Shown here: positions 15,097 through 35,235 of the stretch, piece by piece
Numbering within the stretch: the first letter of the stretch is position 1
Layout of the letters: every line of letters starts with the position of its first letter
Notes under the pieces: model-generated
The model's input: only the letters and a program-made list of their open reading frames with translations
Databases searched by the model: none
Told to the model about the DNA's origin: nothing
Assembly (NCBI GenBank): GCA_027365735.1
Contig: DAHXLY010000003.1
Span: forward strand, 1-35,235
Reading direction: 5' to 3'
Length of the DNA: 35,235 nucleotides
Source of the DNA: Microcaldota archaeon
Lineage (GTDB): Archaea; Micrarchaeota; Micrarchaeia; Micrarchaeales; Micrarchaeaceae
Program-made: the position numbers and the translations under genes

Positions 15097-15158
15097 CGTC
15101 TCACTTATCCTGTGGTATAGTTCGATGCTATTAATCTAATTATATTGTGGGTACTAAT

Positions 15159-15174: not shown

Positions 15175-15949
15175 AGCGTTGTGGGAACATCGTGGCCGCA
15201 ACTTTCACCAATCTCTTATAACCTATCAGCCTGTTATCTTTCATCCCGGTCCATTCCTCATCTAGGACATCTGATACAGTGAACACTGCAGCTGCACGCC
15301 TCTTGAAAAGTTTTGCTACAGTAAACAGCGTTGAAGCTTCCATCTCAACGTTCAAAATCCCAATTTTACGGTAGTGTAGAACTTCCTTATACGTTTCTCT
15401 GTAAGGCGCATCTATGGTCCAGGTTGGACCCTTTACGTACTTGAGGCCTGATCTTTCCACCGCATTCTCTAGTTGCTTTGACAGCTGTCTGTCCGGATAT
15501 GCATATAGAGAGGGCCTGGCATAATGGTGCGAAGTACCCTCATCCCTGACGGCCTTAGTGCAGATTGTTACCTCATTGATTCCTAACGATTTTGTTAACG
15601 AACCAGCGATGCCTAAAATTATGAAATTGTTTATTCCATAGTACGAAAGCTCTTCTACGACGGTTGCAGTCAATGGTGCGCCTATCCCGAGTTTGAGCAT
15701 TATTACTTGTTTGTTTTTGGAAAGGAAGACATCCAAATAGTCCCCATAGATTTTTTTGTAGCGTTTAAGCTCCAAGGGTTTCTTTGCAAAACGTATCATG
15801 TGTCTAGAGTACACGAGTATTGCTGTCTTAAGCTGTTTAGGTCTACTAATACTACGGCTCTTGAAAAACACCTTCGGCGTCACCATCGGTTCAAAAGTAT
15901 GCTTTTTCTTATACTTTGGAAACGCTGTTCCACTAGTCATTTTTTTCAC
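15173..15949 (-). CDS. Nucleoside phosphorylase (uridine/purine phosphorylase family)
   Basis: PNP/UDP-phosphorylase superfamily enzyme that splits nucleosides with phosphate into base and ribose 1-phosphate in the cytoplasm. Visible features are a glycine-containing strand-loop (IMLKLGIGAPLTATVVEEL), the central FIILGIAGSLTKS segment, RDEGTSHHYARPS typical of uridine-phosphorylase-like members, and NVEMEASTLFTVAKLF, where the Glu-Met-Glu contacts ribose. The end is AVFTVSDVLDEEW. Base specificity cannot be read from the sequence. The start is a GTG at 15949: the TATA element TTAAAAG at 15971-15977 is centred 25 nt upstream, although an in-frame ATG follows three codons later. That promoter overlaps the 3' end of the upstream ksgA gene. 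Confidence 0.85.
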   Translation of the reverse strand: MKKMTSGTAFPKYKKKHTFEPMVTPKVFFKSRSISRPKQLKTAILVYSRHMIRFAKKPLELKRYKKIYGDYLDVFLSKNKQVIMLKLGIGAPLTATVVEELSYYGINNFIILGIAGSLTKSLGINEVTICTKAVRDEGTSHHYARPSLYAYPDRQLSKQLENAVERSGLKYVKGPTWTIDAPYRETYKEVLHYRKIGILNVEMEASTLFTVAKLFKRRAAAVFTVSDVLDEEWTGMKDNRLIGYKRLVKVAATMFPQR

Positions 15950-15970
15950 ATGGTGGATTTGAATGCACAG

Positions 15971-15977
15971 CTTTTAA
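15971..15977 (-). promoter_or_regulatory. TATA box of the nucleoside phosphorylase gene
   Basis: TTAAAAG on the minus strand, centred 25 nt upstream of the GTG at 15949 and overlapping the last codons of ksgA. Confidence 0.5.
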
Positions 15978-16792
15978 GTCTTCTGTGCATGGTCGTCTAA
16001 CGAAAAGCACTTTGCAATCACCCTATAGTTATCGTTTGTCAGTTCCGCCGGCCTCTTATTGAGTATTGACCTCCATTTTCCGCTGAATATCTCCTCCAGC
16101 TTTGCCTCCGCCTCCTTCTTCGTCATCCTCTTCCCAAAGATGTTCTCTCCCTTGTCCCAAAACAGTTTCAGCAGCGTATTTCCAACCTTCTTCTTGTCAA
16201 ACAGGAATATCTGCTGCAGGATGTAGCTTGCCCTGTTCTTGTCGGGTCCCACCTGTTTTGGTTTGATTCGCACATATTCTGAACTAACCTTTGGAGGAGG
16301 AGTAAAACTGTTTTTGTCGACCTCGAACAGCACATCCACATCGTAGAATGCCATGAACATCGCGGATATCCCGCCGAAAGCAGCATCAGAGGGCTTGGCT
16401 GTCATTTTTGTGGTGAAGCCGTGCGGCACCATAAGTATAGCTGATTCAAAATTCTGCCTCCTTTCCCTGATCAGTCTTACAAAGAACTGCTGTATTATGG
16501 AATAGGGAGTGTTTGTTATTATCTTGTTGAAGTTTGGAAGCACAACCCTGAGTATGTCACCATGTATCACTTTGACGTTTTCGCTTCCTGCGAACTTTTT
16601 GTTGAGAATTTTCACGAACCTGCTGTCTTTTTCGACTATGAAGAGCCTGCCGCAGTGCTTTATCAGCTCTTCCGAAAGGTTTCCAGGCCCTCCGCCCACC
16701 TCTAGCACCACATCGCCCCTGCTCAGGTCTGCTGCCTCCACCATGGAGCGCATGAGCTGCATGTCGTTGAGTATGTGCTGGTCGTCCTTCAC
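15974..16792 (-). CDS. ksgA: 16S rRNA adenine dimethyltransferase (KsgA/Dim1)
   Basis: SAM-dependent methyltransferase that dimethylates two adjacent adenines in the 3' terminal hairpin of 16S rRNA during small-subunit biogenesis. Visible features are the N-terminal QHILND lead, motif I VVLEVGGGPGNLSEEL, an acidic SAM-ribose residue in FIVEKDS, VIHGDIL, and the catalytic motif IV as ITNTPYSI. In KsgA/Dim1, motif IV is usually NLPY, so the Thr is a substitution to note. The late FTPPPKVSSEYVRI segment is characteristic of the family and separates it from generic methyltransferases. The GTG start at 16792 is well supported by an exact GGTGAT Shine-Dalgarno sequence about 5 nt upstream. The length of 272 residues is typical. 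It fits the surrounding translation block. Confidence 0.9.
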   Translation of the reverse strand: MKDDQHILNDMQLMRSMVEAADLSRGDVVLEVGGGPGNLSEELIKHCGRLFIVEKDSRFVKILNKKFAGSENVKVIHGDILRVVLPNFNKIITNTPYSIIQQFFVRLIRERRQNFESAILMVPHGFTTKMTAKPSDAAFGGISAMFMAFYDVDVLFEVDKNSFTPPPKVSSEYVRIKPKQVGPDKNRASYILQQIFLFDKKKVGNTLLKLFWDKGENIFGKRMTKKEAEAKLEEIFSGKWRSILNKRPAELTNDNYRVIAKCFSLDDHAQKT

Positions 16793-16870
16793 CGTTCAAT
16801 CACCAATCCCGTAATAGAGCCTCGCTAAAGCTTTTATTTGTTCTGCAATATAGTATAGCAGGTTCTGCTT

Positions 16871-18367
16871 ATGAACATTGACGACCTTACAGCATTGGCG
16901 AAGCAGCGCGGCTTCTTCTGGCCTGCGGCTGAGATATACGGGGGAGCCTCTGGCCTATATGATTATGGTAATATCGGCGCGCTCTTCAAGAGGAGATGGG
17001 AGATCGTTTGGCTCTCATACTTCGTGGACACCAATCCGGACTACCATCTCATCGATGGTGCTAATATGCTTCCTGAAAGCCCCCTGATTCATTCAGGCCA
17101 TGCGTCCAGGTTCAATGATGTGTTGGTAGGATGTGGCAAGTGCAAGACCTACTATCGCGCTGATGTGTTACTGGCGGATGCAGGCGCGAAAATATCGGAA
17201 GGTGCCGGAAGCGAGGAGATCGACAAGGCAATAAGGGACAACAAACTGAAGTGCCCGAAGTGCAAGTCCATACAGTTCATGCCGTCAAAGGCGTTCAACA
17301 TGATGCTTGACCTGCATTTGGGTCCCGACAAGGGTGAAAGTGGTTATCTAAGGCCTGAAACCGCGCAGTCCGCTTATTTGAATTTCTTTAGAGAGTTCAA
17401 TATATTGCGAAAGCAGCTTCCACTTGGGCTTGCCGTAATTGGCAGGGCATACAGGAATGAGATATCACCAAGGCAGGGCCTTTACAGAATGCGCGAACTC
17501 ATTCAGGCTGAGCTCCAGATATTCTTCGACCCTGCGACATGGAAACCAGACATCAGCAAAGTAAGGGGGCGCAAGCTTAACGTCGTTCTGTACAAGAAGG
17601 AGCCTGCAGTGATCACCGTGGAGGATCTGATTACGAAGCACAACATTCCCGAGTTTTATGCATATCACATGGCGTTGATTGATGCGTTCTACAAAGACGC
17701 AATAAAGGTGCCGGAGGGCAAGCTCCACTTCCTCGAGAAGGGCGGCGACGAGAAGGCGTTCTACAATAAAGTTCATATGGACATAGAGGTTGACGTCGAA
17801 AGCTGGGGTGGCTTCAAGGAAGTCGGTGGTCTTCACTACCGTGGTGATTACGACCTGACCCAACACAGCAAGGGATCCAAGCAGGACCTGGCAGTGCTGA
17901 TCGATGGCAAGAAGGTGATGCCAAATGTTCTGGAGCTTAGCTTTGGGGTCGACAGGAACTTGTGGATGTTGATAGACGTGTTCTTCAAAAAGGACGAAGC
18001 AAGAAGCGTCCTCAAGATTCCGCCTTTCATGGCTCCGTACCATGCCGGTCTATTTGCGCTCCAGAAGGACGAGGGAATCGACAAGATGGTTGAAAATGTC
18101 CACAACAAACTCAGGAAGAGCCTGAAGGTGTTCTTGGACGACTCCGGATCCATCGGAAAGAGGTACGCGAGGATGGATGAAATAGGCACTCCCTTCTGCA
18201 TCACTGTCGATTTCGACTCAGCGAACAAACAGTCGAAGGAGTACAACACCGTCACGGTCAGGTCAAGGGACGATAAGAGCCAGGTGCGTGTCAAGGTGGA
18301 CGAACTAGAGCATTTCATAAAGGAGAAGGTCGCCTTCGACCCGTACAAGGTCTTTGAGTTCCACTGA
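16871..18367 (+). CDS. glyS: Glycyl-tRNA synthetase, dimeric archaeal/eukaryotic type
   Basis: Class II aaRS that charges tRNA-Gly. The N-terminus (RGFFWPAAEIYGGASGLYDYG) is the family signature. A Zn-type pair of Cys pairs follows (C88/C91 and C128/C131). The catalytic core has GYLRPETAQSAY (about 159-170) and motif 2 ending FRNEISPRQGLYRMREL-like (here YRNEISPRQGLYRMREL). HYRGDYDLTQHS precedes motif 3 (LELSFGVDRNLW). The anticodon-binding domain occupies the last 110 residues. At 498 residues it is slightly shorter than many archaeal GlyRS (about 560-570). Candidate TATA elements lie at about 16830-16838 and 16847-16856. The stop TGA abuts the AsnRS stop directly. Confidence 0.96.
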   Translation: MNIDDLTALAKQRGFFWPAAEIYGGASGLYDYGNIGALFKRRWEIVWLSYFVDTNPDYHLIDGANMLPESPLIHSGHASRFNDVLVGCGKCKTYYRADVLLADAGAKISEGAGSEEIDKAIRDNKLKCPKCKSIQFMPSKAFNMMLDLHLGPDKGESGYLRPETAQSAYLNFFREFNILRKQLPLGLAVIGRAYRNEISPRQGLYRMRELIQAELQIFFDPATWKPDISKVRGRKLNVVLYKKEPAVITVEDLITKHNIPEFYAYHMALIDAFYKDAIKVPEGKLHFLEKGGDEKAFYNKVHMDIEVDVESWGGFKEVGGLHYRGDYDLTQHSKGSKQDLAVLIDGKKVMPNVLELSFGVDRNLWMLIDVFFKKDEARSVLKIPPFMAPYHAGLFALQKDEGIDKMVENVHNKLRKSLKVFLDDSGSIGKRYARMDEIGTPFCITVDFDSANKQSKEYNTVTVRSRDDKSQVRVKVDELEHFIKEKVAFDPYKVFEFH

Positions 18368-19708
18368 TTACGGCTCAACCCTGTTCATCGTCCTCGGGAA
18401 TGGTATTGCATCCCTTATGCTGTCCAGCTTCAGTATCCATCTGCATACCCTTTCCGACCCCATTCCGAATCCGGAGTGCGGAACGCTTCCGTACTTCCTC
18501 AGTTCTATATACCACTTGTAATTCTCCTCCCTCAGTCCTGCTTCATTGAGCCTCTTTATCAGCTCGTCGTAGTCAGCGACCCTTTCGCTGCCTCCTATTA
18601 TCTCGCCGATCCCTTCCGGAGCCAGCAGGTCTCCGTCCAACACCGTCCTCGGATCATCTGGATCAATCTTCATGTAGAACGCCCTCATCTCTTTCGGCTG
18701 GTTTGTCAGGAAGACCGGCTGCATGTTCTCTTGCACAAGCCTCTTCTCCTCATCAAGCCCTATTCCATCGCCCCACTTTATCTCCAGCCCCTTCTTCTGG
18801 AGTATCTTTATCGCCTCCTCGTATGTCATCTTATCGAACGGCGCCTTTATCGCGAGCATGTCCTTCGGGTCGCGGCTGAATTTCCTGAGTATGTCCGCCT
18901 GTTTTTTCGCCGCCTCGTGACATATGTATTCTACCAGCTCGCCCTGGAGCTTCATATTCATCGCCTGGTCATAGAACGCCATTTCTGGCTCAAGCTGCCA
19001 GAACTCCGTTAGGTGCCTTGGGGTCCTGCTCGGCTCCGCCCTGAAGGACGGTGCGAACACATAGACCAACGGATAACCTGCAATCATCGCCTCGCTGTAA
19101 AGCTGTCCCGTTTGTGCGAGGTACGCCTTCCTGTTAAAATATTTGACCTCAAAGACCGTTGAGCCGCTCTCCGCCGCGCTGCCCACAAACATCGGCGGCT
19201 GGAACTCCAGGAATCCCCTATCATCAAGGAACTGCCTGCAAGTCCTGAGCAGGAATGCCTTAAACTTTACAATGTCGATTATGTGCTGCGACCTGACCCA
19301 CAGGTGACGGACATCAAGCAGGAATTCTGTGCTCTGGTCCTTCGTTATCGGGAACGGCTCGCCCTTGAATTCCACCTTCAGGTCTTTTGCGCGTATCTCC
19401 ACGCCTCCCGGCGCGCGCGGCTCGTCTGCAACCTCACCCAAAACATAAACGACCGACTCGATGAATACACTGTTGGCGTTGTCCCACATCCTCTTGTTCT
19501 TATCGTCGTTCTTGACCGCGCACTGCACGATCCCGGTGCCGTCCCTAACTATGACGAAAGCGACGCTCGAACCGCTCCTCTGCCTGTGGACCCACCCCCT
19601 AATCAGGACCTCCTTTCCTACCTTCTCTTTGAGGTCCGATATCCGTGTGACGCGACCGCTGACCTCTTCTAAAGTTCCCTTAAGCATTCCATCTAGCTCC
19701 TTACCCAT
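18368..19708 (-). CDS. asnS: Asparaginyl-tRNA synthetase
   Basis: Class II aaRS that charges tRNA-Asn directly. An N-terminal OB-fold (IRGWVHRQRSGSSVAFVIVR) binds the anticodon. The catalytic core has QTGQLYSEAMIAGY, motif 2 FRAEPSRTPRHLTEFWQLEP and motif 3 GFGMGSERVCRW, ending DAIPFPRTMNRVEP. The sequence TEFWQLEPEMAF after motif 2 is AsnRS-like; AspRS usually has NEFTGLDIEM there. The assignment as AsnRS rather than AspRS therefore rests on that segment and on FPRT. The track start is a TTG at 19735. The ATG at 19708 is preferred because GTGAT precedes it by 4 nt. Direct Asn charging would reduce dependence on the GatCAB route. The stop abuts glyS. Confidence 0.92.
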   Translation of the reverse strand: MGKELDGMLKGTLEEVSGRVTRISDLKEKVGKEVLIRGWVHRQRSGSSVAFVIVRDGTGIVQCAVKNDDKNKRMWDNANSVFIESVVYVLGEVADEPRAPGGVEIRAKDLKVEFKGEPFPITKDQSTEFLLDVRHLWVRSQHIIDIVKFKAFLLRTCRQFLDDRGFLEFQPPMFVGSAAESGSTVFEVKYFNRKAYLAQTGQLYSEAMIAGYPLVYVFAPSFRAEPSRTPRHLTEFWQLEPEMAFYDQAMNMKLQGELVEYICHEAAKKQADILRKFSRDPKDMLAIKAPFDKMTYEEAIKILQKKGLEIKWGDGIGLDEEKRLVQENMQPVFLTNQPKEMRAFYMKIDPDDPRTVLDGDLLAPEGIGEIIGGSERVADYDELIKRLNEAGLREENYKWYIELRKYGSVPHSGFGMGSERVCRWILKLDSIRDAIPFPRTMNRVEP

Positions 19709-19795
19709 TGAATCACTAGGCTTAGTTTGGAACAAGTTGCCCCCAACACAAATTATTGAACGGAATGTTATAAAACCCTATCGTGCAGCGAAAGC

Positions 19796-21252: not shown

Positions 21253-22362
21253 ATGGCCACGAATATCGGCGGTGGGATGAGAAGGCTCTGGAGCAGGGAC
21301 CTTCAGAATCTTGTTTCCGGGATTAGAAGGGGCACATTCAAATACGAAGAGAAAGAGGGGGAACGAATAGACGGAAATAAGTATGATGAAGCGCAAGTCA
21401 ACGAGGTTACTGACATGCTGCAGGTGATAAATGATGTCGTCGATGCCGCATATGGAAGAGTGATGTCAAGAAAACACAAGGGAAAGAGATTGCCGGGGAA
21501 ACCTCTGATACCTGCAGACGATATCGCAAAAATAATGCTGCTCCAGTGCTACTTTGGTTTTTCGAACAGAGTTTCCGCCGGTTTTCTAAAGATGTTCACG
21601 GCAATCAAATTCTCCAAGAGTTTCAGTTACAAAACTGTGGAAAGAGGATACGATCCGGATCGCACCAAACCACTTTTTGACGAGATATTCCGGCTCACGA
21701 ACGAGTGGAGTAATTTCAAGGAAGATATGTCGGGTTTCGATGGAACAGGAGATCCAAACACTATGAAAGTGAACTATGAGAACAAACGTTCTGAACAGAG
21801 GACAAAAACAAAGAAGGCGAGCTGTACATGGCCGAGTACGAAGCATGACTTTCAGTACTCTGAAATAGGGGCAGGGATGCACACAAAAATAATATCGGGT
21901 TTTTCATCGACAGATGACCATCATACTGGCGAACTTTCTCAGTTTCCAACTGCGATGCGTCAAACACATTCGAACATTCCAAATCTTGCGATAGTCGTTG
22001 GCGACTCTTTATACGCATGCAGATCGGTTTGTAAACAGGTCGGCGATTACGGCGCTGCGTTGTATTCCCTGCCGAAATCCAACAGCACTTTGAAAAGTTA
22101 CGGCGTATGGGATTGGAAACGGATGACGTACGAATTGATATTGGATCCTCAGGGATTTCTAGAGGTATTTCATAACCGTTCGATATCGGAAACCGTAAAC
22201 TCCATGATGAAAAGAAGAGAGCCAATTCCGATAAGGAAAAGAATTTCATGGAGAAAGGACATGGAGGAGTTTCTGAAAGTCAACATCCACAACCTGCGCC
22301 AATCCTGTTATCTATCATATCTTGCGCCCACCATGACTAGGATACCGCTTCATGGTGGGTAA
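21253..22362 (+). CDS. DDE-type transposase (IS4/IS5-like)
   Basis: The protein has 369 residues with an RNase H-like catalytic core. The likely acidic triad is the Asp in SGFDGTGDP (about residue 162), the Asp in IVVGDSLYACRS (about 250) and the Glu in FHNRSISETVNSMMKRR. The last matches the R-x3-E-x6-K style signature of IS4-type enzymes. The N-terminal third is helical and probably binds the element ends. The ORF is uninterrupted. The ATG at 21253 follows a TATA element at 21214-21223. Its partner is the divergent DUF2080-like gene. Family placement within IS4/IS5 relatives is uncertain. Confidence 0.8.
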   Translation: MATNIGGGMRRLWSRDLQNLVSGIRRGTFKYEEKEGERIDGNKYDEAQVNEVTDMLQVINDVVDAAYGRVMSRKHKGKRLPGKPLIPADDIAKIMLLQCYFGFSNRVSAGFLKMFTAIKFSKSFSYKTVERGYDPDRTKPLFDEIFRLTNEWSNFKEDMSGFDGTGDPNTMKVNYENKRSEQRTKTKKASCTWPSTKHDFQYSEIGAGMHTKIISGFSSTDDHHTGELSQFPTAMRQTHSNIPNLAIVVGDSLYACRSVCKQVGDYGAALYSLPKSNSTLKSYGVWDWKRMTYELILDPQGFLEVFHNRSISETVNSMMKRREPIPIRKRISWRKDMEEFLKVNIHNLRQSCYLSYLAPTMTRIPLHGG

Positions 22363-24024: not shown

Positions 24025-24324
24025 ATGGCCGAAGCCGCAATTAGGATTCATATGCAGGTTGATAGCGCCAGGGACAGGCTTTGCAGCCTGATAAGGGAGC
24101 ACCCGGAACGGGCGCTGGAGTGCCTCACCTCACTGCTTAGAATGTGTGCGGCTTCGTTTGGATCGCAAGGAGTCACGGTCTCCGACCGCGCCGATGCGGA
24201 GATGGTTGGAGTAGTTGTCGCTATGGTTTCAGGAAAATGCGCCGATGAACACGACCCTGTATATATGGAACGCCTCATTGAGGGGCTTTCGAGGGATTAC
24301 GATGAAAATTCAAGAGAAGAGTAA
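24025..24324 (+). CDS. Small helical protein, first gene of the GT9/rSAM operon
   Basis: This is a 99-residue protein that I do not recognise. It is mostly helical and acidic at the end: RIHMQVDSARDRLCSLIREH, ALECLTSLLRMCAASFG, VGVVVAMVSGKCADE and YMERLIEGLSRDYDENSREE. The supplied track extends this frame back to 23527 through the AT-rich block. The ATG at 24025 is the credible start because coding-like composition begins there and GGTTGG lies just upstream. Its last 23 nt overlap the start of the glycosyltransferase-like gene, so the two are translationally coupled. It may be an accessory subunit. Confidence 0.6.
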   Translation: MAEAAIRIHMQVDSARDRLCSLIREHPERALECLTSLLRMCAASFGSQGVTVSDRADAEMVGVVVAMVSGKCADEHDPVYMERLIEGLSRDYDENSREE

Positions 24325-26194
24325 AACCGGGACGATAGTGGTGTCAATGGCTGGCGTACACAAGGACAAGCACCCACAAAAGGAGCTTGCCCTTTGGCTG
24401 CCCGGGCCGGGCGACACGAATGGTGAGCTGCGCAAGCCGCAGCTGATGGCAAGCCTTTCTGGAACGCATGCGAGGATACTCGTGAGGCTCCTGGAGGGAT
24501 TTGTGATATACAACATTAATATGATAAATAACGCGGTCGCCGAATTCAAACATTCTGGCAAGAGTTACTCGCTCACCGAGCTTTCAGATGAAGTGGTAGT
24601 ATCGATAAGGCCGGCCCACAATTCCTCCACGGGCACGGTGGCGCTCAACGTTGGATTCCCATTCCCTATATACACTGAAAAGTTCAGCAATGCAGAGCTG
24701 GAGTGTGGCAGCCTTGATATCCAGATATTCCTTAGGGGTGAGAGGATACGAAACCTACAGAGGATAATGCTGATGGACCTGCTTGATGGGGATGTACCGC
24801 TGAAGTGGAATGAGGTAGGTAGCGTGCGCGAGTTCAGGGAGCTGACGAAGAGGACGATGGCGTGGACGGGCAACGTGCTGTACGTAGACGCCTACACATA
24901 CATAGGCGACTCCATAATAGGGCTGCACTTCCTTGATGCTTTTGTTAAGGACTATGGCATAGACAAGAAGAATGTCAGGGTGCTCTCGAGGGCGTACAAA
25001 CACATAGACGGGTTCTACCCCAGCGCCCCGTGCGACCCGAAGGAGCTCTCCGGGATATGTGATGAATCCAGTGTCGTGATAATGCCCGACCTGATAGACA
25101 GCCATTGGGGTAAGAGGTTGGAGCTAATCGATGCTATAAAGGACAGGGAGGTGTTTGTGTTGGTGGTCTCCCGCAACCTGGCGATAAAGCTAGGAAAAAA
25201 GAGGGAGGTCTGGCACCTGAGTAGCGCTGATCCTCTGTTGAGGGAGTCGAACATCGAAGACTATATGAATGACTGTCTGCTTCCGTTTGTTGACCGGGCA
25301 TCGGTGTGTGAGCGTGGCTGCGTGGCACGGCCGTCGGCAGAGCTTAGAGAAAACGGGAGGATTGCACTGTTGGGCAACGCCCTCAGCTCGCTAGGCGGAA
25401 AGGACCTGCCACCCGAGAAGTTCTTGGACCTCTGCAAAAAGATGCTCACACGAATCAGCGCGCCGATATATGTTTCCGCCGGGGTCAGGGAGAGTGCAAA
25501 GGACGTCGCCTGGGTGGCAAAATTCTCCTCTCTGTTGGCCGCGAGCGACAACCGCGTACGCAGCGGAATAAGGCTGCTTTACGACAACGGGCTTACCGAC
25601 CTTGCCGAACGGTGCAGGGAGCTTGACGTCTCACTGGTCTTCAGCGTCGATACGTCGCTGCCCCACCTGTTCAACAGGCTGGGCGTGCCAACGATTGCAA
25701 TTTACAAGAAGGCATTTTGGGATGACTCGAGCCTGCAGTCTCTAGCCTCCGACTCACCGCTTGGGTTCTGTCGCTATGGGGGTGCGATGTACCCTGCGGT
25801 CTTCGACGAGCGGGAGGACAACGGAAGGTTCGCCGACCTGATGGCGGAATGCGCGGTCTCGCTGATCGGTGATGGTTTGTGTGAGGTGCACGAGGGCGTG
25901 CAAGAGTTCATCAGGGACATTGAGAGGCTTGCATTTGCGAGAAGGGATCCGAAGATCTCTGGACTTAGGGAGAGGAACGGCAGATTGGTGTGGTCATTTG
26001 AGAGGTTAAGGGCCAAATACAAAGAAGGGCGGAACGCATGGATGTTTGAACTGTTTGACCCAGCAAGCATCACGGAGAACGTGATGAATTTCTTTCCCGC
26101 ACCTCGCACTGCAGACCTTGTCTCGAGCTCTTGGCTGATATCGCCGGCGTACAAGTGGTTTAAGTTTGACTCATACAGAAAAAAACGTGGTTGA
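24302..26194 (+). CDS. GT9-like (heptosyltransferase-type) glycosyltransferase with an extra N-terminal domain
   Basis: A predicted GT-B-fold glycosyltransferase of 630 residues. Residues about 190-340 start like GT9 enzymes (NVLYVDAYTYIGDSIIGLHF, equivalent to the usual 'D.iGD...t.P.l'). Residues about 350-500 hold the nucleotide-sugar half with the diagnostic LVFSVDTSLPHLFNRLGVPT followed by IAIY, matching the GT9 'SVDTg..HlA..lg.PT'. The first 190 residues and the last 120 are not recognised. The track start (24215) would run through the upstream gene. The ATG at 24302 gives a 23-nt overlap, normal for an operon. The stop immediately precedes the radical SAM ATG. Donor and acceptor are unknown; activity is inferred. 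Confidence 0.65.
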   Translation: MKIQEKSKTGTIVVSMAGVHKDKHPQKELALWLPGPGDTNGELRKPQLMASLSGTHARILVRLLEGFVIYNINMINNAVAEFKHSGKSYSLTELSDEVVVSIRPAHNSSTGTVALNVGFPFPIYTEKFSNAELECGSLDIQIFLRGERIRNLQRIMLMDLLDGDVPLKWNEVGSVREFRELTKRTMAWTGNVLYVDAYTYIGDSIIGLHFLDAFVKDYGIDKKNVRVLSRAYKHIDGFYPSAPCDPKELSGICDESSVVIMPDLIDSHWGKRLELIDAIKDREVFVLVVSRNLAIKLGKKREVWHLSSADPLLRESNIEDYMNDCLLPFVDRASVCERGCVARPSAELRENGRIALLGNALSSLGGKDLPPEKFLDLCKKMLTRISAPIYVSAGVRESAKDVAWVAKFSSLLAASDNRVRSGIRLLYDNGLTDLAERCRELDVSLVFSVDTSLPHLFNRLGVPTIAIYKKAFWDDSSLQSLASDSPLGFCRYGGAMYPAVFDEREDNGRFADLMAECAVSLIGDGLCEVHEGVQEFIRDIERLAFARRDPKISGLRERNGRLVWSFERLRAKYKEGRNAWMFELFDPASITENVMNFFPAPRTADLVSSSWLISPAYKWFKFDSYRKKRG

Positions 26195-27157
26195 ATGACA
26201 CTGAAACAAATAACACTGGCCGTTAACGATTATTGCAACAACAAATGCGACGTAATGTGCCAGATATACAAGAACGCACCCATTGTCAAGACCGGCGCGA
26301 GCGAGTTCACCGGCATGCTGCGCAGACAGGAGTTCAGGGATCTGCAGGAGGTTGCGATAACCGGAGGTGAGCCGTTTATGAACGTCGAGCACCTCAATGG
26401 GGTCATCGAGGGTATGATAGAGGCACTCCCAAATCTTTCGTGGGTATTCATCAACACGAACGGCACCTATCCAGAGCGCGTCGGGAAATTCATAGAAAAA
26501 TTCGCCGGGAAAGTTCCAAAACTGACAATATCAATTTCATTGGAGGGCACCCCGGAGGTCCATAACAAACAGCGCGGCGTCAGGTCGTTTGAGCTTGTGA
26601 TGTCGACGATAGATGTGGTTAGCAAGTCGGGGAGAAAGAACGTGACAGGATCGCTGTCCACCACTATAACGTTATACAACGCCGATGTGTCAGAGCTCGA
26701 CTACGTAAGGTGTGTTGCGGAGAAGAATGGTTTTGCACATACATTTAGGATGGCGAGCAAGAGCGGAACCTATTACCACAATGAGAACACCGGAAAGGAT
26801 GAGCAGATTCCACCGAAAAAAGTCGAAGAGATCCTTGCATTCATAGCGCAGCACTACAGCGAAGATCCATTCCAAGCGATGCAGACCAGATACCTACGCA
26901 CTGGGCAGACGGGATTGAAATGCACCGCCGGCTCCGACTTCGCATTTGTACAGGCTGACGGCAAAATATACCCATGCATATTTAGCACGAGGGTGATCGG
27001 CGGTAAGGCTGAAGGGGTTACAACAAGCGTGATAACCGACCTTGGAAAGCAGGAACCGTGCCCGTGCTGCACCGAGTGTGCGGTTTACCCAATGATGAAC
27101 TATGGTCCGTCGGAAAACAGGCAGCAGAGGCAGGAGGCACTGATACAATTACGATAA
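26195..27157 (+). CDS. Radical SAM protein with SPASM-like C-terminus and atypical CX3CX3C motif
   Basis: This is a 320-residue radical SAM enzyme. The N-terminal cluster motif reads YCNNKCDVMCQIY, so the three Cys are spaced CX3CX3C rather than the canonical CX3CX2C. The ITGGEPFMN loop for SAM is intact, as are the TISISLEG strand and later barrel elements. The C-terminal part has CTAGSDFAFVQADGKIYPC followed by PCPCCTEC, like a reduced SPASM/twitch domain holding an auxiliary Fe-S cluster. SPASM proteins commonly modify peptides or carbohydrates. The ATG directly abuts the GT9-like stop. The gene after it starts 12 nt downstream. The product is probably co-expressed with, and may act on the product or substrate of, the glycosyltransferase. 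Confidence 0.85.
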   Translation: MTLKQITLAVNDYCNNKCDVMCQIYKNAPIVKTGASEFTGMLRRQEFRDLQEVAITGGEPFMNVEHLNGVIEGMIEALPNLSWVFINTNGTYPERVGKFIEKFAGKVPKLTISISLEGTPEVHNKQRGVRSFELVMSTIDVVSKSGRKNVTGSLSTTITLYNADVSELDYVRCVAEKNGFAHTFRMASKSGTYYHNENTGKDEQIPPKKVEEILAFIAQHYSEDPFQAMQTRYLRTGQTGLKCTAGSDFAFVQADGKIYPCIFSTRVIGGKAEGVTTSVITDLGKQEPCPCCTECAVYPMMNYGPSENRQQRQEALIQLR

Positions 27158-27169: not shown

Positions 27170-27553
27170 ATGGATATATCACCAGCAGAACTGGCAGACC
27201 GCTACACGATAGTAGCACTGAAGTTGGAGAGGAATGGGGATCTGCTCTTCAAAAAGGAGTTGGATACCCTGGCGGGGGAGGTGCTCGAGCTGAAGAGGCA
27301 GGGCCTAATGCAGCAGAGATGGGTTGATGAGCTCTACAGGGTCAACTCCAAGATATGGAACCTTGAATCGAAGATAAAGGACACCAATGTCAAGAAGGGT
27401 GATCTGTCAACGATCGGCTCTCTTGCGCTGCAGGTGAGGATCTGGAACAACCGCAGGACCGACGTCAAAAGGAAGATAACCAAGAAGATCGGAGTCGGCT
27501 TCATTGACAGGAAGAAGTACTATGTGAAGACGGCCGCAAGAACCGGCAAGTGA
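27170..27553 (+). CDS. DUF6165-like protein
   Basis: A helical protein of 127 residues. The sequence ISPAELADRYTIVALKLERN, then YRVNSKIWNLESKIKDTN and LALQVRIWNNRRTDVKRKI, resembles the DUF6165 pattern known to me from bacteria ('iS.gEl.DKltIL.iK...', 'L..vN..LW.iEd.IR', 'V..lND.Ra.lK..I'). My recollection is that such proteins occur beside heptosyltransferase/TPR-type glycan genes, which would fit the GT9-like neighbour. The biochemical role is unknown. The start is supported by GGTGG 5 nt before the ATG. A profile search should confirm the family. Confidence 0.55.
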   Translation: MDISPAELADRYTIVALKLERNGDLLFKKELDTLAGEVLELKRQGLMQQRWVDELYRVNSKIWNLESKIKDTNVKKGDLSTIGSLALQVRIWNNRRTDVKRKITKKIGVGFIDRKKYYVKTAARTGK

Positions 27554-28560: not shown

Positions 28561-29487
28561 TCACGAGGGAAAGTTTACTATCGTTTCGATTATCGGCTTT
28601 CCGCATAGATAGTTCTGCAGTATTTTCTCATAAATTGAATAGCGCCATTCCCTCGTTTTCGGAAACTTTTGCAATTGGACGGCTGACCAAATTATCCGTC
28701 CGAAGATGAAATCATCCTTATAATCTGACGGTTTCGGCAGCCCGTTCCTTACGTAGACGTCGTCAATTGCGTTCAGGTAGGATACTCTTTGGGCTGCCGT
28801 GAAATCATATCCGCGCCACATCTCATATTTTCTGCTCTTGCTGAAGTTTCTGGTTTTTGGAAATGCGTAAATGTGGTAGAGGTTTGTGATTGCATCATAT
28901 CCGGCAGGCCCGTAGAACATAAACTCGAAATCTATTATTCCCTTTGGCATGAAGTTAAACGGGTTAAGGTCTCCATGCGTGATCACCATTGGAAAAACCG
29001 AAGTTCTGTCCTTCACCTGTTTGAGCGCTTTGATGGTGTCATGTTTCAAATCGGGCCGTTCCTCAAAAAGCTTATGTGAAAAAAATCCCTTTATGTCAAA
29101 TTTTTCCTTTTTGGTCGCACTTCTCAGCTGGGCCTCGCAAAAGAGCCTTGTCATGTCGATGTACCTTTTGAAGTTGGCGGCAGATACGGTACCCGATCTG
29201 CTGCAGTCCCTCATGAATATCTCACCCATATGCACGTCTCCGAGAGACTCCTCGACGTAGAAGCTTTGACCATCGACCTTGCCCTCCTTGATTAACCTTG
29301 CCACTGGGAACCCGAACCTCCGCAGTTTTTCGAATACCTCCATGTCTTTTTTGACATCATTGGTGTTTCCCATCCTAAGATAGGTTCCACTCCCTTTGTA
29401 GACCGAAATCGAGCTATACGCCCTTTTCTTCACAAACTCGTATTCCCTGTTTCCTATTCTGAGCGTGCCTCCTGCCATCTTTTCCAT
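28561..29487 (-). CDS. APH/choline-kinase-like phosphotransferase
   Basis: Protein kinase-like-fold small-molecule kinase of 308 residues. The N-lobe begins GGTLRIGNREYEFVKK, with YLRMGNTNDVKKDMEVFEKL near the ATP-binding region. The catalytic loop is ITHGDLNPFNFM (HGDxxxxN), and the metal-binding motif is GIIDFEFMFYGPAGYD, as in aminoglycoside/choline phosphotransferases. The substrate is unknown; it need not be an antibiotic. The track start at 29565 is replaced by the ATG at 29487, because the TATA element AATAAAAG at 29510-29517 is centred about 26.5 nt upstream. The next gene upstream (ABC ATPase) is divergent. Confidence 0.8.
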   Translation of the reverse strand: MEKMAGGTLRIGNREYEFVKKRAYSSISVYKGSGTYLRMGNTNDVKKDMEVFEKLRRFGFPVARLIKEGKVDGQSFYVEESLGDVHMGEIFMRDCSRSGTVSAANFKRYIDMTRLFCEAQLRSATKKEKFDIKGFFSHKLFEERPDLKHDTIKALKQVKDRTSVFPMVITHGDLNPFNFMPKGIIDFEFMFYGPAGYDAITNLYHIYAFPKTRNFSKSRKYEMWRGYDFTAAQRVSYLNAIDDVYVRNGLPKPSDYKDDFIFGRIIWSAVQLQKFPKTREWRYSIYEKILQNYLCGKPIIETIVNFPS

Positions 29488-29509
29488 ACAAGATGATAGA
29501 TAAAGGAGG

Positions 29510-29517
29510 CTTTTATT
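29510..29517 (-). promoter_or_regulatory. TATA box of the APH-like kinase gene
   Basis: AATAAAAG on the minus strand, centred about 26.5 nt upstream of the ATG at 29487. It selects that start over the longer ORF in the track. Confidence 0.6.
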
Positions 29518-29682
29518 GATTTTGTACAGCTTTTGGAGAACATCTGCAGAAGCACCATTTGACAATCATCGTTGTTTTCCCCTTGCAAGTACAGAAGGAT
29601 TAAGTATTTTTACGTTCCAACCACCTCAGGTCAATTTACGCAAGGTAGCGCCGCTGCTAAACTTCGTAAAACCGTGATGGAG

Positions 29683-30696
29683 ATGGCCAAGATATCCAAA
29701 GAGATGGAAAATGCAAATGCAAACGCAAATGCAATAGAGATCAGCGACGTACGGAAGTACTTCGACACGGTCGAACACTCCAGCGGAGGCTTTTTCCAGA
29801 GCCTGCGCAGGAAGAAGTTCATTAAGAAGGCGGTGGACGGGGTATCGTTCAACGTCAGGAAGGGCACGATCATGGCGCTCCTTGGGAAGAACGGATCAGG
29901 GAAGTCGACCCTCATCAAGATGCTGGTCGGCATAATGAATCCAGACAGCGGCAATATCAAGATTCTTGGCATGGACCCGTGGAAGGACAGGATCCAGCTT
30001 TCAAGAAAGGTGGGAGTCGTGTTGGGCGCGCACCCTGTGCTGTACACCGACCTGCCTGCGATTGACAACTTCGAATACATAAGACAAGTGTACCGCATAC
30101 CGAAAGCCGAGTTCAAGAGGAGGCTCGACTACCTGGTCGGCATGCTGGAGCTGAAGGATGTATACAACCGCCAGGTGAGGGAGCTGTCGCTCGGAGAGAA
30201 GATGAAGTGCAACTTCGTCGCCGCTGTGCTCCACATGCCGGAGCTGATAGTGTTGGACGAGCCGACGATCGGAGTCGACCTTCCTTCAATGTTGAACCTC
30301 CGCGCAGCGGTGCTGGACCTCCAGAAGAACTATGGTCGTACATTCCTGATCACCACCCACATACTCGAGGACGTGAGGATACTCGCGGAGAACGTGGTGA
30401 TAATCGACAGGGGCAAGAAGGTGTTCGACGACACGAAGGAGAAGCTAAGCAAGCTGTACGGGGACTACAAGTACGCAGAGATATATTACCAGGACGGCAA
30501 GAGGCTGAACTTCTCGAAGTACGGCAAGGTCGTGGAGCGCAAGGAGTCATATGTGAAGTTGGAGGTAAACAGCTCGCAGATCAGGAACAAGAGGTTCACC
30601 AAGCTCCTCGCCGACCCGAGGGTCGAGGACTTCAACATAGTCGAACCAGAAATCCAGGATGTGATGAAGAAGTTCTACACGAGGATGAAGAAGTAG
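29683..30696 (+). CDS. ABC-2 type exporter, ATP-binding subunit
   Basis: Nucleotide-binding subunit of an ABC exporter at the membrane. Visible motifs are Walker A GKNGSGKSTLIKM, a Q-loop region, signature ELSLGEKMKCNF (LSxGxK rather than LSGGQ, as often in this subclass), Walker B LIVLDEPTIGVD and the switch His in TTHILEDV. A C-terminal regulatory stretch of about 100 residues follows. A short low-complexity repeat (NANANANA) lies near the N-terminus. The track begins at a TTG at 29572. The ATG at 29683, preceded by GTGATGGAG, is a better start (337 residues). The two permease genes follow at 6 nt and 0 nt, giving a complete exporter operon. The transported substrate is unknown. Confidence 0.9.
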   Translation: MAKISKEMENANANANAIEISDVRKYFDTVEHSSGGFFQSLRRKKFIKKAVDGVSFNVRKGTIMALLGKNGSGKSTLIKMLVGIMNPDSGNIKILGMDPWKDRIQLSRKVGVVLGAHPVLYTDLPAIDNFEYIRQVYRIPKAEFKRRLDYLVGMLELKDVYNRQVRELSLGEKMKCNFVAAVLHMPELIVLDEPTIGVDLPSMLNLRAAVLDLQKNYGRTFLITTHILEDVRILAENVVIIDRGKKVFDDTKEKLSKLYGDYKYAEIYYQDGKRLNFSKYGKVVERKESYVKLEVNSSQIRNKRFTKLLADPRVEDFNIVEPEIQDVMKKFYTRMKK

Positions 30697-30702
30697 CGTG
30701 GT

Positions 30703-31518
30703 ATGATGGAAAACAACGGATTCGCAAGCCAGTACATCGCGGCGATGCTGATAGAGTGGAGAGCATATCTTACCTACCGCCTCGAGCTGATGGTTGCGAT
30801 AATAAGAAGACTACTGTCGCCCATAGGCAGCATAGTGCTATGGAGCGTGATATACGCAGCCACCGGCACGCACACCCTGAACGGCTTCCCGCAGTCGGCG
30901 ATCTACATATATTTCCTAGCGATGAGCGCTGTGACCGCTTCGGTGCTTAACGTCAACATAGGATTCGACATGCAATCGGATATAAAGTCGGGGGACATAG
31001 CCGGAAAGCTGGTCAAGCCCTTCAGCTATCCGTGGCTGGCATTCGCCGTTACTTTGGCGGACTCGATGTTTGACTTCCTGATACTGACTGTGCCGATCAT
31101 GATAGTCGCTTCGGTGGCGATAGGGTACCACATCAACCCCGCATTCATAGGGATGTTCATGCTGACGATGCTGCTTGGCTTCATCATAAGCAGCCTGATA
31201 TTCTTCACTGCCGGGTGCCTATCGGCATACCTTATAAACATCTGGGGGATACTCTCCATACTGCAGTGGGGTTTCGCGATACTCGGAGGCAGGATGATTC
31301 CGCTGACGGTGTTTCCGCCGGCGATGCAGACGATCATCCAGGCGCTGCCCTTCTATTTGGTGTATTACCTTCCGGTCGCCACCATAACAGGCATAGCGAC
31401 GCCCGCTTTCATAGGCGCCGCGATGGTCGAGGCCGTCGAGTGGATAATCGCGTTGTCCGTCATCGCATACGCAGCATGGGGTCTGTCGAAGAACAAAATA
31501 ATGGCTGCAGGTGGTTGA
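30703..31518 (+). CDS. ABC-2 exporter permease, first subunit
   Basis: Membrane protein of 271 residues with about six hydrophobic helices, an amphipathic N-terminus and the conserved cytoplasmic-loop sequence IKSGDIAGKLVKPFSYPWL. It resembles the PF06182/DUF990-type ABC-2 permeases, in which 'G.i...L.kP' is typical. It presumably pairs with the following permease as a heterodimer and uses the upstream ATPase. The start is one of two tandem ATGs (30703, 30706) with GTGG just upstream; the gap after the ATPase stop is 6 nt. The last codons carry the Shine-Dalgarno sequence (GCAGGTGG) for the next gene. Confidence 0.82.
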   Translation: MMENNGFASQYIAAMLIEWRAYLTYRLELMVAIIRRLLSPIGSIVLWSVIYAATGTHTLNGFPQSAIYIYFLAMSAVTASVLNVNIGFDMQSDIKSGDIAGKLVKPFSYPWLAFAVTLADSMFDFLILTVPIMIVASVAIGYHINPAFIGMFMLTMLLGFIISSLIFFTAGCLSAYLINIWGILSILQWGFAILGGRMIPLTVFPPAMQTIIQALPFYLVYYLPVATITGIATPAFIGAAMVEAVEWIIALSVIAYAAWGLSKNKIMAAGG

Positions 31519-32334
31519 ATGAGGTATGAGAGAGATCAAAATCCAATCATAAACTTTTTCGAGGCCATTAGGATAGCGTTGATTACGCAGTACTACGGCT
31601 GGAAGGGGTTCACGATCTACCGTACGCAGTTCGTGTTCTACCTGCTCTATGGCGCGGTATCGCCGTTTGTGACCTTCCTGTTCATTTATGTTATTTACAA
31701 CGTCTCGGCCGGGGTGCCCGGGTGGACCTTCTACCAGCTGCTATTCCTGAACATACTGGTGGGCCTGGTCTCATCCCTCGTGCCATACGTATCGAGCCCG
31801 AGCGGTCTGATGCTCTCGCTCAGGACCGGAGGGTTTGATGTGCTTCTCACCAGGCCGTACTCGGCGTTCAATGCGATCATGGCCAACTTCAGCGACACGA
31901 CCAGCGGAATCAACGTGATTGATTACCTAATACTGCTTGCGTATGTAATGGCTCACCTCACCTTTACGCTGCCCGGGGCAGGGATGTTCGCGGTCGTGTT
32001 TGTGCTCGGCACGATAGCGATAACGCTCTTCCTCCAGACGGCAGTGCTCTTCGCCTACCGAAGCCTGAGGTCGAGCAGCGTGATATCGAACATCTTCAAC
32101 CTCGCAACCGGGTTCACCAACCAGCCGCTCAGCCTTTACGGGTTCACCGGCACGATCCTCCTGACGCTGCTGGTGCCGATAGGCTTTGCGACCTACTTCC
32201 CGGCAGAGCTGTTCATCGGCAAACAAGGACTTTCATTCTTCATACCGGCGGTCATCGCGCTTGCGGTGCTGATAGGGATGTTCTACAAGCTGATAACCCG
32301 CCGCCTCAAGGGATACGAGAGCGCGATGGGCTGA
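31519..32334 (+). CDS. ABC-2 exporter permease, second subunit
   Basis: Membrane protein of 271 residues, the same length as its neighbour, with about six helices. After the second helix pair comes LRTGGFDVLLTRPYSAFNAI, the same conserved loop position as in the first permease and in PF06182-type proteins. The ATG at 31519 immediately follows the TGA of the first permease and is preceded by GCAGGTGG, so translation is coupled. The C-terminus is basic (ITRRLKGYES). Together with the ATPase and the first permease it completes a three-gene exporter. The substrate is unknown. A paralogous origin with the first permease is likely. Confidence 0.82.
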   Translation: MRYERDQNPIINFFEAIRIALITQYYGWKGFTIYRTQFVFYLLYGAVSPFVTFLFIYVIYNVSAGVPGWTFYQLLFLNILVGLVSSLVPYVSSPSGLMLSLRTGGFDVLLTRPYSAFNAIMANFSDTTSGINVIDYLILLAYVMAHLTFTLPGAGMFAVVFVLGTIAITLFLQTAVLFAYRSLRSSSVISNIFNLATGFTNQPLSLYGFTGTILLTLLVPIGFATYFPAELFIGKQGLSFFIPAVIALAVLIGMFYKLITRRLKGYESAMG

Positions 32335-32610: not shown

Positions 32611-33009
32611 TTATTTGCCAGCCGCTTCCTTGAGCAGTTCGGTGGTGCTGATCAGTCCAACGCATCTCATTCCAGCAAGAGAATCAACCACCGGCAGCCT
32701 CTGCATGTCGTGATCTAGCGCTGTTTTTATCGCCGTGGCGATCGTGTCGTTCTGCTCCACAAAGATCGGCGATTTTATAAGCCTGTCCACGCCGACCGAG
32801 TGGTCTTCCTCTTTATGGCTCGCGGCGAAAAGTAGCAGTTCGGTTTCATCCACCATCCCGACCAGCCTTCCGTTCGCCAGGACTGGGATTATGCCGACAT
32901 TGCTGGTCTTCACCAAATTCAGTGCGGATCTTATCGTGGTGGTGTTGGATATCGCAACCAACTTCCTGTCCATTATCTCCGATATTTTCCTGGTGTTGAT
33001 GTTCGGCAT
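32611..33009 (-). CDS. CBS-domain pair protein
   Basis: Two tandem CBS motifs form one Bateman module in 132 residues. The first runs from ISEIMDRKLVAISNTTTI to GIIPVLANGRLVGMVDETEL. The second runs from LIKSPIFVEQNDTI to RLPVVDSLAGMRCVGLISTT. Such stand-alone modules usually bind adenosyl ligands (AMP, ATP or SAM) and regulate a partner, which here is unknown. The track start is a TTG at 33024. The ATG at 33009 (MPNINTRKI) is preferred, with AT-rich promoter sequence about 20 nt upstream. It converges on the small Cys protein gene, and its promoter region adjoins the AlaRS-like stop. Confidence 0.85.
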   Translation of the reverse strand: MPNINTRKISEIMDRKLVAISNTTTIRSALNLVKTSNVGIIPVLANGRLVGMVDETELLLFAASHKEEDHSVGVDRLIKSPIFVEQNDTIATAIKTALDHDMQRLPVVDSLAGMRCVGLISTTELLKEAAGK

Positions 33010-33073: not shown

Positions 33074-34408
33074 TCACTGCCTCTTGAGGCCTCCTAGCGC
33101 CTTCTCTATGCGATCGAGAGGTATTCTCTTTCCGAACCCGCCCGCTATGCACTTCTCTACAAACTCGTAGGTCGGCGCCTTTGCATCATCTCCGGATATG
33201 CTAAGTTTTAGTTCTGCAGCAAGTTGCCCGTTCCTCTGCCTGTTGACCTCATCTCTGATCACCTCCCTTATCTGTGTGGGCCCCAGTTGGAGTTTCGTGA
33301 AGTAACTCCAGAACTTGTAGTAGTACGGGACCAGCGTGTGCCACCTGAGTGCGTCCCCATCAGCCGCCACGAGATCCCTAACTAGGCTCCTGACCTTCAT
33401 TCCGTACGGCGTATCTGACGGTGTGATATTCGAGCCTATGAGGAGTGCAAGAGTCCTGGTCCTGTCCATAAGCTGTATGTTGTCATTCACCGACTCGGTC
33501 AGCGGCCCGACCATGTCAAAGTTGCGGACCGTCTTGTTTGCGCACCAAGCTATCCTTTCCAACCCGAATCCTATGTCGCTGAAGACCAGCGGCTGCCTTG
33601 TGCTTTGCGGGAAGGCGTAATGGTAGCCGGAGTCCCCAAGCTCAAAGCTTTTGTATGCAAAGAATATGTGAACAGTTGGGCTTTTCCTCCCGTACCAATC
33701 CAGCACGTGGTCGTACACCTTCATCGAAAGGTTCTGTTTCTCCATCACCTCAGAGAGGAATTTCATCCACGAGATCACGTCCGCTACATGCTCTTCAGGC
33801 GTAGGGTTCACCGATTCGGTCGCGACGTTGACGAAGGACGAGTAGAACCCCTTATCCCTGCTGATCTGATCCCGCATGATCAACCTGATCGCCGGCTGCC
33901 AAGAGAATATTTTTCTCTTCGCCACATCGACCTCCTTCTCCTCAAACATCATCTCGTCAAACATCTGGACAACCGCCACGGTGAAGAGGCTCTCATCAAG
34001 CTGCTTCTCGCCGGACTTCCCCCTCCAATGAAGCACCGGCCTCGGATCGAGGCTTGTGTAGCCGTCACCCACAAAGTGGTCGCGCATTTTTTTCATCAGT
34101 GCCTCTATGGTGATTGGTGATTTCGCGTCTCCAGCCTGGAAGCACAACGATTGGTTGCTGCAGAACTCGCTTCCGCAGTTGCCGAGCCTCTGGCCCATGC
34201 TGTAGAATGTAACCCCGCACGTGTCGCATTTTCCGCGCTGCCAACCATCGGCCAGCATCACTGCATCCAGTTTGCCAAGAAACGCCACCCTCAGCGGATT
34301 GGCCATATTCTGCTCACTAGGCGGCGGCGCCCTGTAGTGGGCTGGCGTGACAAACTTCTCCGACCCGCTTTCCGCCACCGACCCACTCCCTTTCGTGCCC
34401 AGCATCAT
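33074..34408 (-). CDS. AlaRS-like stand-alone catalytic protein (no editing domain)
   Basis: A 444-residue protein resembling the class II catalytic core of archaeal alanyl-tRNA synthetase. It has an N-terminal Zn-type element (C61, C64, C78, C83: CDTC...NCGSEFC) like the one in archaeal AlaRS. A motif-2-like WQPAIRLIMRD lies near 170-180, and a motif-3-like SDIGFGLERIAW near 278-288. The editing (SAD) and DHHA1/C-Ala domains are absent, so it is about half the family's usual length. The middle region carrying the usual amino-acid pocket is divergent. The ATG at 34408 overlaps the SerRS stop (ATGA), so it is translated with SerRS. It may be an AlaRS paralogue or one half of a split AlaRS. Its substrate is not certain. 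Confidence 0.65.
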   Translation of the reverse strand: MMLGTKGSGSVAESGSEKFVTPAHYRAPPPSEQNMANPLRVAFLGKLDAVMLADGWQRGKCDTCGVTFYSMGQRLGNCGSEFCSNQSLCFQAGDAKSPITIEALMKKMRDHFVGDGYTSLDPRPVLHWRGKSGEKQLDESLFTVAVVQMFDEMMFEEKEVDVAKRKIFSWQPAIRLIMRDQISRDKGFYSSFVNVATESVNPTPEEHVADVISWMKFLSEVMEKQNLSMKVYDHVLDWYGRKSPTVHIFFAYKSFELGDSGYHYAFPQSTRQPLVFSDIGFGLERIAWCANKTVRNFDMVGPLTESVNDNIQLMDRTRTLALLIGSNITPSDTPYGMKVRSLVRDLVAADGDALRWHTLVPYYYKFWSYFTKLQLGPTQIREVIRDEVNRQRNGQLAAELKLSISGDDAKAPTYEFVEKCIAGGFGKRIPLDRIEKALGGLKRQ

Positions 34409-35235
34409 TTCGCCGGCTTGATAGTATCTATTCCAGTTATGTTGGCCAATACCCTTGGTACCTGGATAACACCATCCTCGTCGAGCGCGTTCTCCAACAG
34501 ACACGAGAGCGCCCGCTCCATCGGTATCATGGTTCCGTATACCGTAGTGACAAGCTGCGGGTCCTGCTTGCCCTTCGGCACGTACTTCATGTTGAGCCTC
34601 GAGGCCTGCCACGTCCCTACGGACGCATGGCTTCCCAGCTCTCCATACCTGTTCTGGCCGGGGAACCATCCTTCTATGTCGATGTGGCGGTAGGCCTTCT
34701 TGTCCATGTCCCACGTCGGCAGCTCTATCGCCCTGTACGGGATGCCAAGGCTCTGCAAAAGCCTGCCCTCGTTCTCAAGTACCAGGTTGAGTGCGTCCTC
34801 TGCCTGGTCCTGTGTGCAAATGATATACTGCTCCACCTTGTTAAAGTGGTGGTTCCTGTAGATTCCCTTCGTGTCCTTGCCGTGCGCGCCCGCCTCCTTT
34901 CTGAAGGATACGCTGTACCCTGCTAGCTTCAGCGGCAGGTCCTTCTCGAGGAAAAGCCTGCCCCTGTTGTAGGCGGCGATCGGATGCTCGGCGGTGGGTA
35001 TCATGAAGAGGTCCTCGCCCTCTATCTTGTAAATTGTCTCCTCAAAGGCGTCCAGCGTCGTTGCAAGTTCCTCGACGATCCTTTTCACCATGTACGGCGG
35101 GGTCATCAGCGCGAAGCCCTGGTCTCGCAGCACTTTCACCGCGTGCATCGCGAGCGCAAGGTCCAGTAGCACGAGCTCGTTTTGCTTGTAGTAGAACCTC
35201 GCCCCCGCTAGTTCCGCGCCCTTCTCCTCGTCGAC
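34405..35235 (-). CDS. serS: Seryl-tRNA synthetase, C-terminal part (gene begins outside the window)
   Basis: Class II aaRS charging tRNA-Ser (and tRNA-Sec where present). The reading frame stays open to the window edge, so the N-terminal coiled-coil arm is missing. Visible elements are RFYYKQNELVLLDLALAM at the start of the core, the serine-site IPTAEHP, motif 2 as FRKEAGAHGKDTKGIYRNHH followed by FNKVEQY, and GELGSHASVGTWQASRLNMK. This last matches the SerRS 'GE..S.S...D.QaRR...' region, with variation. The C-terminal motif 3 region is TMIPMERALSCLLEN. Its TGA overlaps the ATG of the AlaRS-like gene, so the two form an operon. Confidence 0.9.
   Translation of the reverse strand, partial: VDEEKGAELAGARFYYKQNELVLLDLALAMHAVKVLRDQGFALMTPPYMVKRIVEELATTLDAFEETIYKIEGEDLFMIPTAEHPIAAYNRGRLFLEKDLPLKLAGYSVSFRKEAGAHGKDTKGIYRNHHFNKVEQYIICTQDQAEDALNLVLENEGRLLQSLGIPYRAIELPTWDMDKKAYRHIDIEGWFPGQNRYGELGSHASVGTWQASRLNMKYVPKGKQDPQLVTTVYGTMIPMERALSCLLENALDEDGVIQVPRVLANITGIDTIKPAK

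Follow-up and report, generated by a model that had tools for sequence, protein, structure and literature searches.

A truncated alanyl-tRNA synthetase-derived protein family of DPANN archaea with a probable role in small-molecule metabolism

The window analysed here, 35,235 nt of DNA, is one whole contig of a Micrarchaeota genome (562 kb in 39 contigs, 53% complete). Towards one end, at positions 33074–34408, it encodes a protein, P0001, that resembles an alanyl-tRNA synthetase (AlaRS). An earlier note on this DNA had given these coordinates correctly; the coding strand is the minus strand, and several stops are present on the plus strand of the same interval. The frame is intact, with 444 codons and a stop, which agrees with the 444 residues stated in that note. 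Its first ATG (34408–34406) shares bases with the TGA (34407–34405) of the seryl-tRNA synthetase (SerRS) gene (34405–35235, minus strand), as ATGA, and the 5′ end of the SerRS gene is cut by the contig end at 35235. Because the homologues described below begin ∼14–22 residues before a conserved GW, Met35 at 34306 is the likelier start, which would give a protein of 410 aa. The gene is real: its codon use agrees with that of the contig (mean log RSCU of +0.165 versus −0.154 ± 0.028 for random synonymous codons). Its C-terminal end is natural: the next gene, on the same strand, encodes a CBS-domain protein (32611–33009), and the contig continues beyond this point. As this downstream protein is unrelated, a missed frameshift or a truncated editing domain was ruled out.

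Further into the window, two adjacent genes on the plus strand encode a GT9-like protein (24215–26194; the GT9 assignment is weak, from PF01075 at E 0.026 plus the appearance of the sequence) and a radical SAM protein (26195–27157). They are followed on the plus strand by a gene for a small DUF6165/DUF4254-like protein (27170–27553; weak match). Between the pair and P0001 are genes for an APH-family kinase (28561–29565, minus strand) and an ABC-2 exporter with an ATPase and two ABC2_membrane_6 subunits (29572–32334, plus strand), both possible members of a cluster by position only. Several other features of this contig were observed. Synthetase genes are concentrated on it (7772–19735 and 34405–35235), encoding ProRS, TrpRS, MetRS, TyrRS, GlyRS, AsnRS and SerRS, with one tRNA-Thr also among them. 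The radical SAM protein carries a C-x3-C-x3-C motif (CNNKCDVMC) versus the usual C-x3-C-x2-C in its homologue from genome G488 (see below), and its cluster-binding loop is one residue longer. An ORF of 369 aa at 21253–22362, DDE-transposase-like by eye and without a Pfam match, is found near a local GC dip (∼44–48%) just upstream of the GT9-like and radical SAM genes, and this region may be mobile.

Against a profile of canonical AlaRS, P0001 scored 64 bits, the best of 200 shuffled sequences reaching 0.7 bits. A Pfam search gave no hit, including to PF01411, and the score against the archaeal AlaRS model TIGR03683 (43.1 bits) was far below the cut-off of 744.7. An AlphaFold2 model, for which the alignment consisted of 42 canonical AlaRS only, was of moderate confidence (mean pLDDT 73.5, pTM 0.74). 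The top PDB matches of this model in Foldseek were all AlaRS (E 2e-14), with the GlyRS alpha subunit next, at a distance. This match and the presence of the class II arginines of motif 2 and motif 3 (R175, R285) uphold the family assignment made in the earlier note. P0001 comprises the catalytic and tRNA-recognition parts of an archaeal AlaRS and ends after the latter; the editing and C-Ala domains are absent, in agreement with the note.

P0001 shares the fold, the Cys cluster, the motif 2 and motif 3 arginines and the equivalents of Trp170 and Asp235 with archaeal AlaRS (TIGR03683; PDB 3wqy, 2ztg and 2zzg; residues in E. coli AlaRS numbering, via chain 3hxu). However, it retains only 24 of the 55 columns that are invariant across 42 canonical archaeal AlaRS, whereas canonical members retain >93% of them in a leave-one-out test. 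The signature elements listed in the earlier note are all present, namely the four-cysteine cluster C61-C64-C78-C83 of the archaeal AlaRS N-terminal type (CxxC-C-C; 34160–34228), QPAIR within the motif 2 region (33833–33898) and GFGLER within motif 3 (SDIGFGLERIAW, 33545–33580), all on the minus strand. In motif 2, Q171, R175 (R69) and F192 (F90) are kept and the equivalents of D76 and H86 are lost, so adenylation by P0001 may be impaired. Motif 3 keeps D278 (D235) and R285 (R242), and the equivalents of W170 and G237 are kept as well. The note had also called the amino-acid pocket divergent, and this was borne out: in the pocket strand ELGDSG (33626–33643, minus strand), E256 (E209) is kept, and D259 and G261 replace N212 and V214. 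In a bacterial AlaRS, the V204A exchange, which places a smaller residue at the V214 position, raises the use of serine (PMC12143591), and by analogy the pocket of P0001 may therefore take a larger amino acid. Finally, the reduced tRNA-recognition-like region (33077–33484, minus strand) has PSD332 where all 42 canonical sequences have PSN, the Asn of which (N303) reads G3:U70; the GGG separator described for archaeal AlaRS is changed too.

A second AlaRS was found elsewhere in the source genome (G000:C8, L001 1483–3276). It is a bacterial-type enzyme of 597 aa with core and editing domain (NF002436, 803 bits; cut-off 529) and without a DHHA1 match, and tRNA-SAD in this genome is confined to its gene. 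A separate AlaRS beta half (DHHA1/C-Ala) was not found in the 53% complete genome, where the only matches to DHHA1 are DHH phosphoesterases, as judged by sequence. These results bear on the suggestion in the earlier note that P0001 could be the alpha half of a split AlaRS of the Nanoarchaeum type. Like the N. equitans alpha half, P0001 is an AlaRS core that stops ahead of the editing domain. It differs, however, in covering the tRNA-recognition region, and its homologues are single genes, one of them in a genome (G488) with an intact full-length AlaRS of its own (823-codon frame). Because the source genome has an AlaRS with an editing domain and no beta half was found in its 53% complete assembly, the idea fails, and we regard it as extremely unlikely. 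P0001 is neither the AlaRS of the cell nor an AlaRS alpha half.

A search for homologues of P0001 returned only canonical AlaRS from 301 Micrarchaeota genomes, a contig collection (protein and alignment queries), viral contigs, phages and plasmids. The impression that P0001 is a singleton was overturned when 371 genomes from the Nanoarchaeota phylum were searched: G597 (E 3e-40), G435, G510 and G488 encode full-length short homologues; in a fifth genome, G427, the gene is broken by an N gap. The homologues are 379–397 aa long, have the same architecture as P0001 and are 22–27% identical to it. The complete family thus comprises five sequences, P0001 and four homologues, all from assembled genomes. 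An HMM built from the four homologues, with P0001 left out, gave P0001 231 bits versus 94 for the best canonical AlaRS. In a tree, the five complete mini proteins formed one clade (SH-aLRT 100), apart from 54 canonical AlaRS; an earlier tree with P0001 as sole mini member had given a branch length of 10 and no usable placement. We do not trust the branching order and rooting, because all five mini proteins have long branches. The family is rare and patchy, present in three of the 103 genomes of the order to which G488 belongs. No member was found in viruses or plasmids, and a Sphingopyxis match (24%, inside an EAL-domain gene) was judged to be due to chance.

Members of the genus of the source archaeon differ in their AlaRS, with either a bacterial-type enzyme (∼600 aa, core and editing domain) or an archaeal-type one (∼890–940 aa), which amounts to a synthetase replacement. 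P0001 might accordingly be pictured as a decaying relic of an ancestral archaeal AlaRS, left behind after replacement by the bacterial-type enzyme. Such an origin is very unlikely: the ORF is intact, its codon use is native, catalytic residues are conserved and P0001 groups with homologues from another phylum. Joining it to the archaeal AlaRS of its own family was rejected (p-AU 5e-6).

Despite the low identity, several positions are kept in all five mini proteins: Q171, R175 (R69), F192 (F90), W238 (W170), S277-D278 (D235, where the column holds an acidic residue throughout), GLER with R285 (R242), D315, R318, W367 and E387. Other positions are not. The N212 column reads D, I, D, V and D, so that N212 is lost in all five, and the V214 column reads G, N, G, N and V, with V214 lost in four. 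In two members N occupies the N303 position, which falls in a weakly aligned region, and the Cys cluster is present in four. Residues that hold the adenylate are kept while the amino-acid pocket is changed, a pattern that fits an enzyme which binds an adenosine-type ligand and has acquired another amino acid or acceptor better than it fits a scaffold. The proposal in the earlier note that P0001 might be a paralogue with a changed pocket, handling something else, is supported, and it gains strength from this family.

Could such a protein still charge tRNA? A functional mini-AlaRS has been described from Tupanvirus, and P0001 could by comparison be a mini synthetase that loads one specific tRNA with alanine, serine or some other amino acid. 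TuAlaRS has the same domain content, with neither editing domain nor C-Ala, has lost the Asn that reads G3:U70 and is active without the Asn/Asp readers (PMC10036535), and the V214 → G change would enlarge the pocket in the manner of V204A (PMC12143591). TuAlaRS is, however, a true AlaRS, which charges tRNA-Ala and complements yeast (PMC10036535), whereas the alanine pocket of P0001 is divergent. At N212, V214 and motif 2 positions where canonical enzymes show no variation, P0001 has other residues, and its GGG separator is altered as well. P0001 furthermore coexists with another AlaRS and with a normal tRNA-Ala(UGC), whose G3:U70 can be read straight off the sequence, and a survey of the tRNAs of the source genome revealed no odd tRNA as a substrate. 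We consider a charging function improbable.

The genes around the homologues point in a different direction. In four of the five genomes (G597, G435, G510 and G427), a gene for an archaeal-type methionine adenosyltransferase (MAT) is directly upstream of the mini gene, overlapping it in G435 and G427, which are close relatives and were counted as one lineage. MAT was assigned by PF01941 in the three genomes tested and by homology in G427; the enzymes of G597 and G510 are divergent (310–324 bits at best versus NCBIfam cut-offs of at least 435). A gene for an S51 peptidase-like protein (PF03575) occurs within a few genes of the mini gene in all five, a radical SAM gene in three (G597, G510 and G488) and a histidine phosphatase gene in two (G597 and G510). 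In G488 (L188), which also has a deoxynucleoside-kinase-like gene nearby, the order is GT9-like, radical SAM, mini-AlaRS. The window pair is homologous to these two neighbours (E 1e-77 between the GT9-like gene and the gene two upstream of the mini gene, E 4e-66 between the radical SAM gene and the one directly upstream), and its two genes are adjacent to each other as they are in G488; in G488 the pair abuts the mini gene.

SerRS was seen beside the mini gene in none of the five homologues, which have biosynthetic genes there instead. The earlier note had found the loss of the editing domain next to SerRS provocative, given that AlaRS editing removes mischarged serine. This fidelity story found no support: the editing-less family goes together with biosynthetic genes, and several relatives of the source archaeon have another gene after SerRS, encoding a 402-aa protein that we read as aRF1-like by sequence. 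The surroundings of the homologues also bear on the possibility that P0001 is a pseudo-synthetase like HisZ, in which the AlaRS fold would serve as a scaffold for binding tRNA or an aminoacyl-adenylate-like effector and would act on SerRS without catalysis. The overlap of the two genes and the loss of 31 of the 55 AlaRS-invariant residues, D76 and H86 equivalents included, would fit a non-catalytic partner of SerRS. Yet the adenylate-contact residues R69, F90, W170, D235 and R242 are shared by all five members, divergent as these are, and a partnership with SerRS is hard to extend to homologues that all sit among biosynthetic genes. We regard this explanation as unlikely.

As the family sits beside small-molecule biosynthesis genes, P0001 probably attaches an amino acid to a metabolite and has no part in protein synthesis. 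Our favoured reading, which we hold to be probable, is that P0001, of AlaRS descent, serves an accessory small-molecule pathway, either as an amino-acid ligase or as an aminoacyl transferase; we infer its catalysis, its substrate and the source of its amino acid (ATP activation or aminoacyl-tRNA). The AlaRS-type pocket would hold an adenosine-containing ligand, which could be a self-made aminoacyl-adenylate or an acceptor of adenosine type, and the enzyme would link the amino acid to a non-protein acceptor through an ester or amide bond. Likely partners would be the GT9-like and radical SAM proteins in the window, and MAT, the S51 peptidase-like protein and the phosphatase in the relatives. 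Several observations speak against this ligase or transferase reading. MAT and S51 genes are absent from the contig of P0001 (the window was searched for them and for a phosphatase gene, and it has none of the three), the gene that touches P0001 is a housekeeping gene, that for SerRS, and the D76 and H86 equivalents are lost. Because the GT9-like/radical SAM pair is ∼6 kb away and on the opposite strand, its membership of the pathway in the source genome is deduced from co-occurrence.

Truncated AlaRS are already known, as TuAlaRS (PMC10036535) and AcmF illustrate, and the latter is the closest analogue, among characterised enzymes, of the kind proposed here. AcmF, from ascamycin biosynthesis in Streptomyces, is a 370-aa truncated AlaRS-like protein with only the aminoacylation and tRNA-recognition domains. 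It uses Ala-tRNA as the donor of alanine and, as acceptor, a nucleoside sulfamate that has been modelled at the alanyl-AMP site (PMC4257720, PMC12945691). Neither the N212 equivalent nor the G3:U70 readers remain in AcmF, which tolerates Gly- and Ser-tRNA; Ala-tRNA is supplied by AcmD, an AlaRS encoded near acmF in the same cluster, which also holds a radical SAM gene (PMC4257720, PMC12945691). By this published description, P0001 is alike in being truncated, in lacking the N212 equivalent and the G3:U70 reader while keeping the acid, and in its biosynthetic setting with a radical SAM gene and a synthetase gene nearby; in the family at large the loss of N212 and the acid are common to all five members, but two of them have N in the weakly aligned N303 column. 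The two differ in that AcmF is bacterial, that the acid is Glu in AcmF and Asp in the DPANN family, and that the DPANN clusters hold other genes (MAT, S51, GT9-like). Moreover, most ATP-binding residues are described as missing from AcmF, whereas the arginines of motifs 2 and 3 are present in the DPANN family. Since both arginines are kept, self-activation is conceivable, and the mini family plausibly works as AcmF does or activates its amino acid itself. The SerRS beside P0001 could recall AcmD near AcmF, or be an accident. Other synthetase folds have likewise been recruited outside translation, in aa:CP ligases, HisZ and SbzA, but these derive from other synthetases or are without the tRNA-binding part, and no carrier-protein gene was recognised near P0001.

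The link to MAT in the relatives would fit a SAM-derived acceptor. One could picture a hitherto unrecognised DPANN pathway that couples an amino acid to a SAM-derived or other adenosine-like molecule by means of the AlaRS-derived enzyme, with the radical SAM, GT9-like, MAT and S51 proteins acting alongside it. The amino acid would either be activated by the enzyme itself or be drawn from aminoacyl-tRNA, which in the source archaeon might be Ser-tRNA from the coupled SerRS. In this specific form the proposal is tentative and, on balance, rather doubtful. The small genomes of DPANN archaea are thought to be poor in secondary metabolism, and a family whose genes keep company with those for MAT, radical SAM and S51 proteins would suggest that these archaea make a new metabolite, and it provides a concrete enzyme that can be tested. 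Enzymes derived from synthetases and working outside translation are how the machinery of the genetic code gets recycled; those derived from AlaRS are very few, AcmF being the characterised case that we found. A DPANN family derived from AlaRS with such a residue pattern and such neighbours was not found in the literature searched, and the family, which is rare, is apparently undescribed. For annotation, whenever a genome-reduced archaeon has a short 'AlaRS', a second AlaRS should be looked for before the short one is called split or editing-deficient.

Two further AlaRS genes deserve mention. The viral contig IMGVR_UViG_3300006324_000092 carries an archaeal-type AlaRS gene (L148, 3659–5335) that is cut by the contig end; its product resembles Nitrosopumilales AlaRS and lacks the N-terminal Cys cluster, and the other genes of the contig are, by eye, helicase-, PolA-, nuclease- and SET-like. 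A Woesearchaeota AlaRS gene (L075, 2923–5439) is interrupted by one stop near codon 424, which divides it into two in-frame halves.
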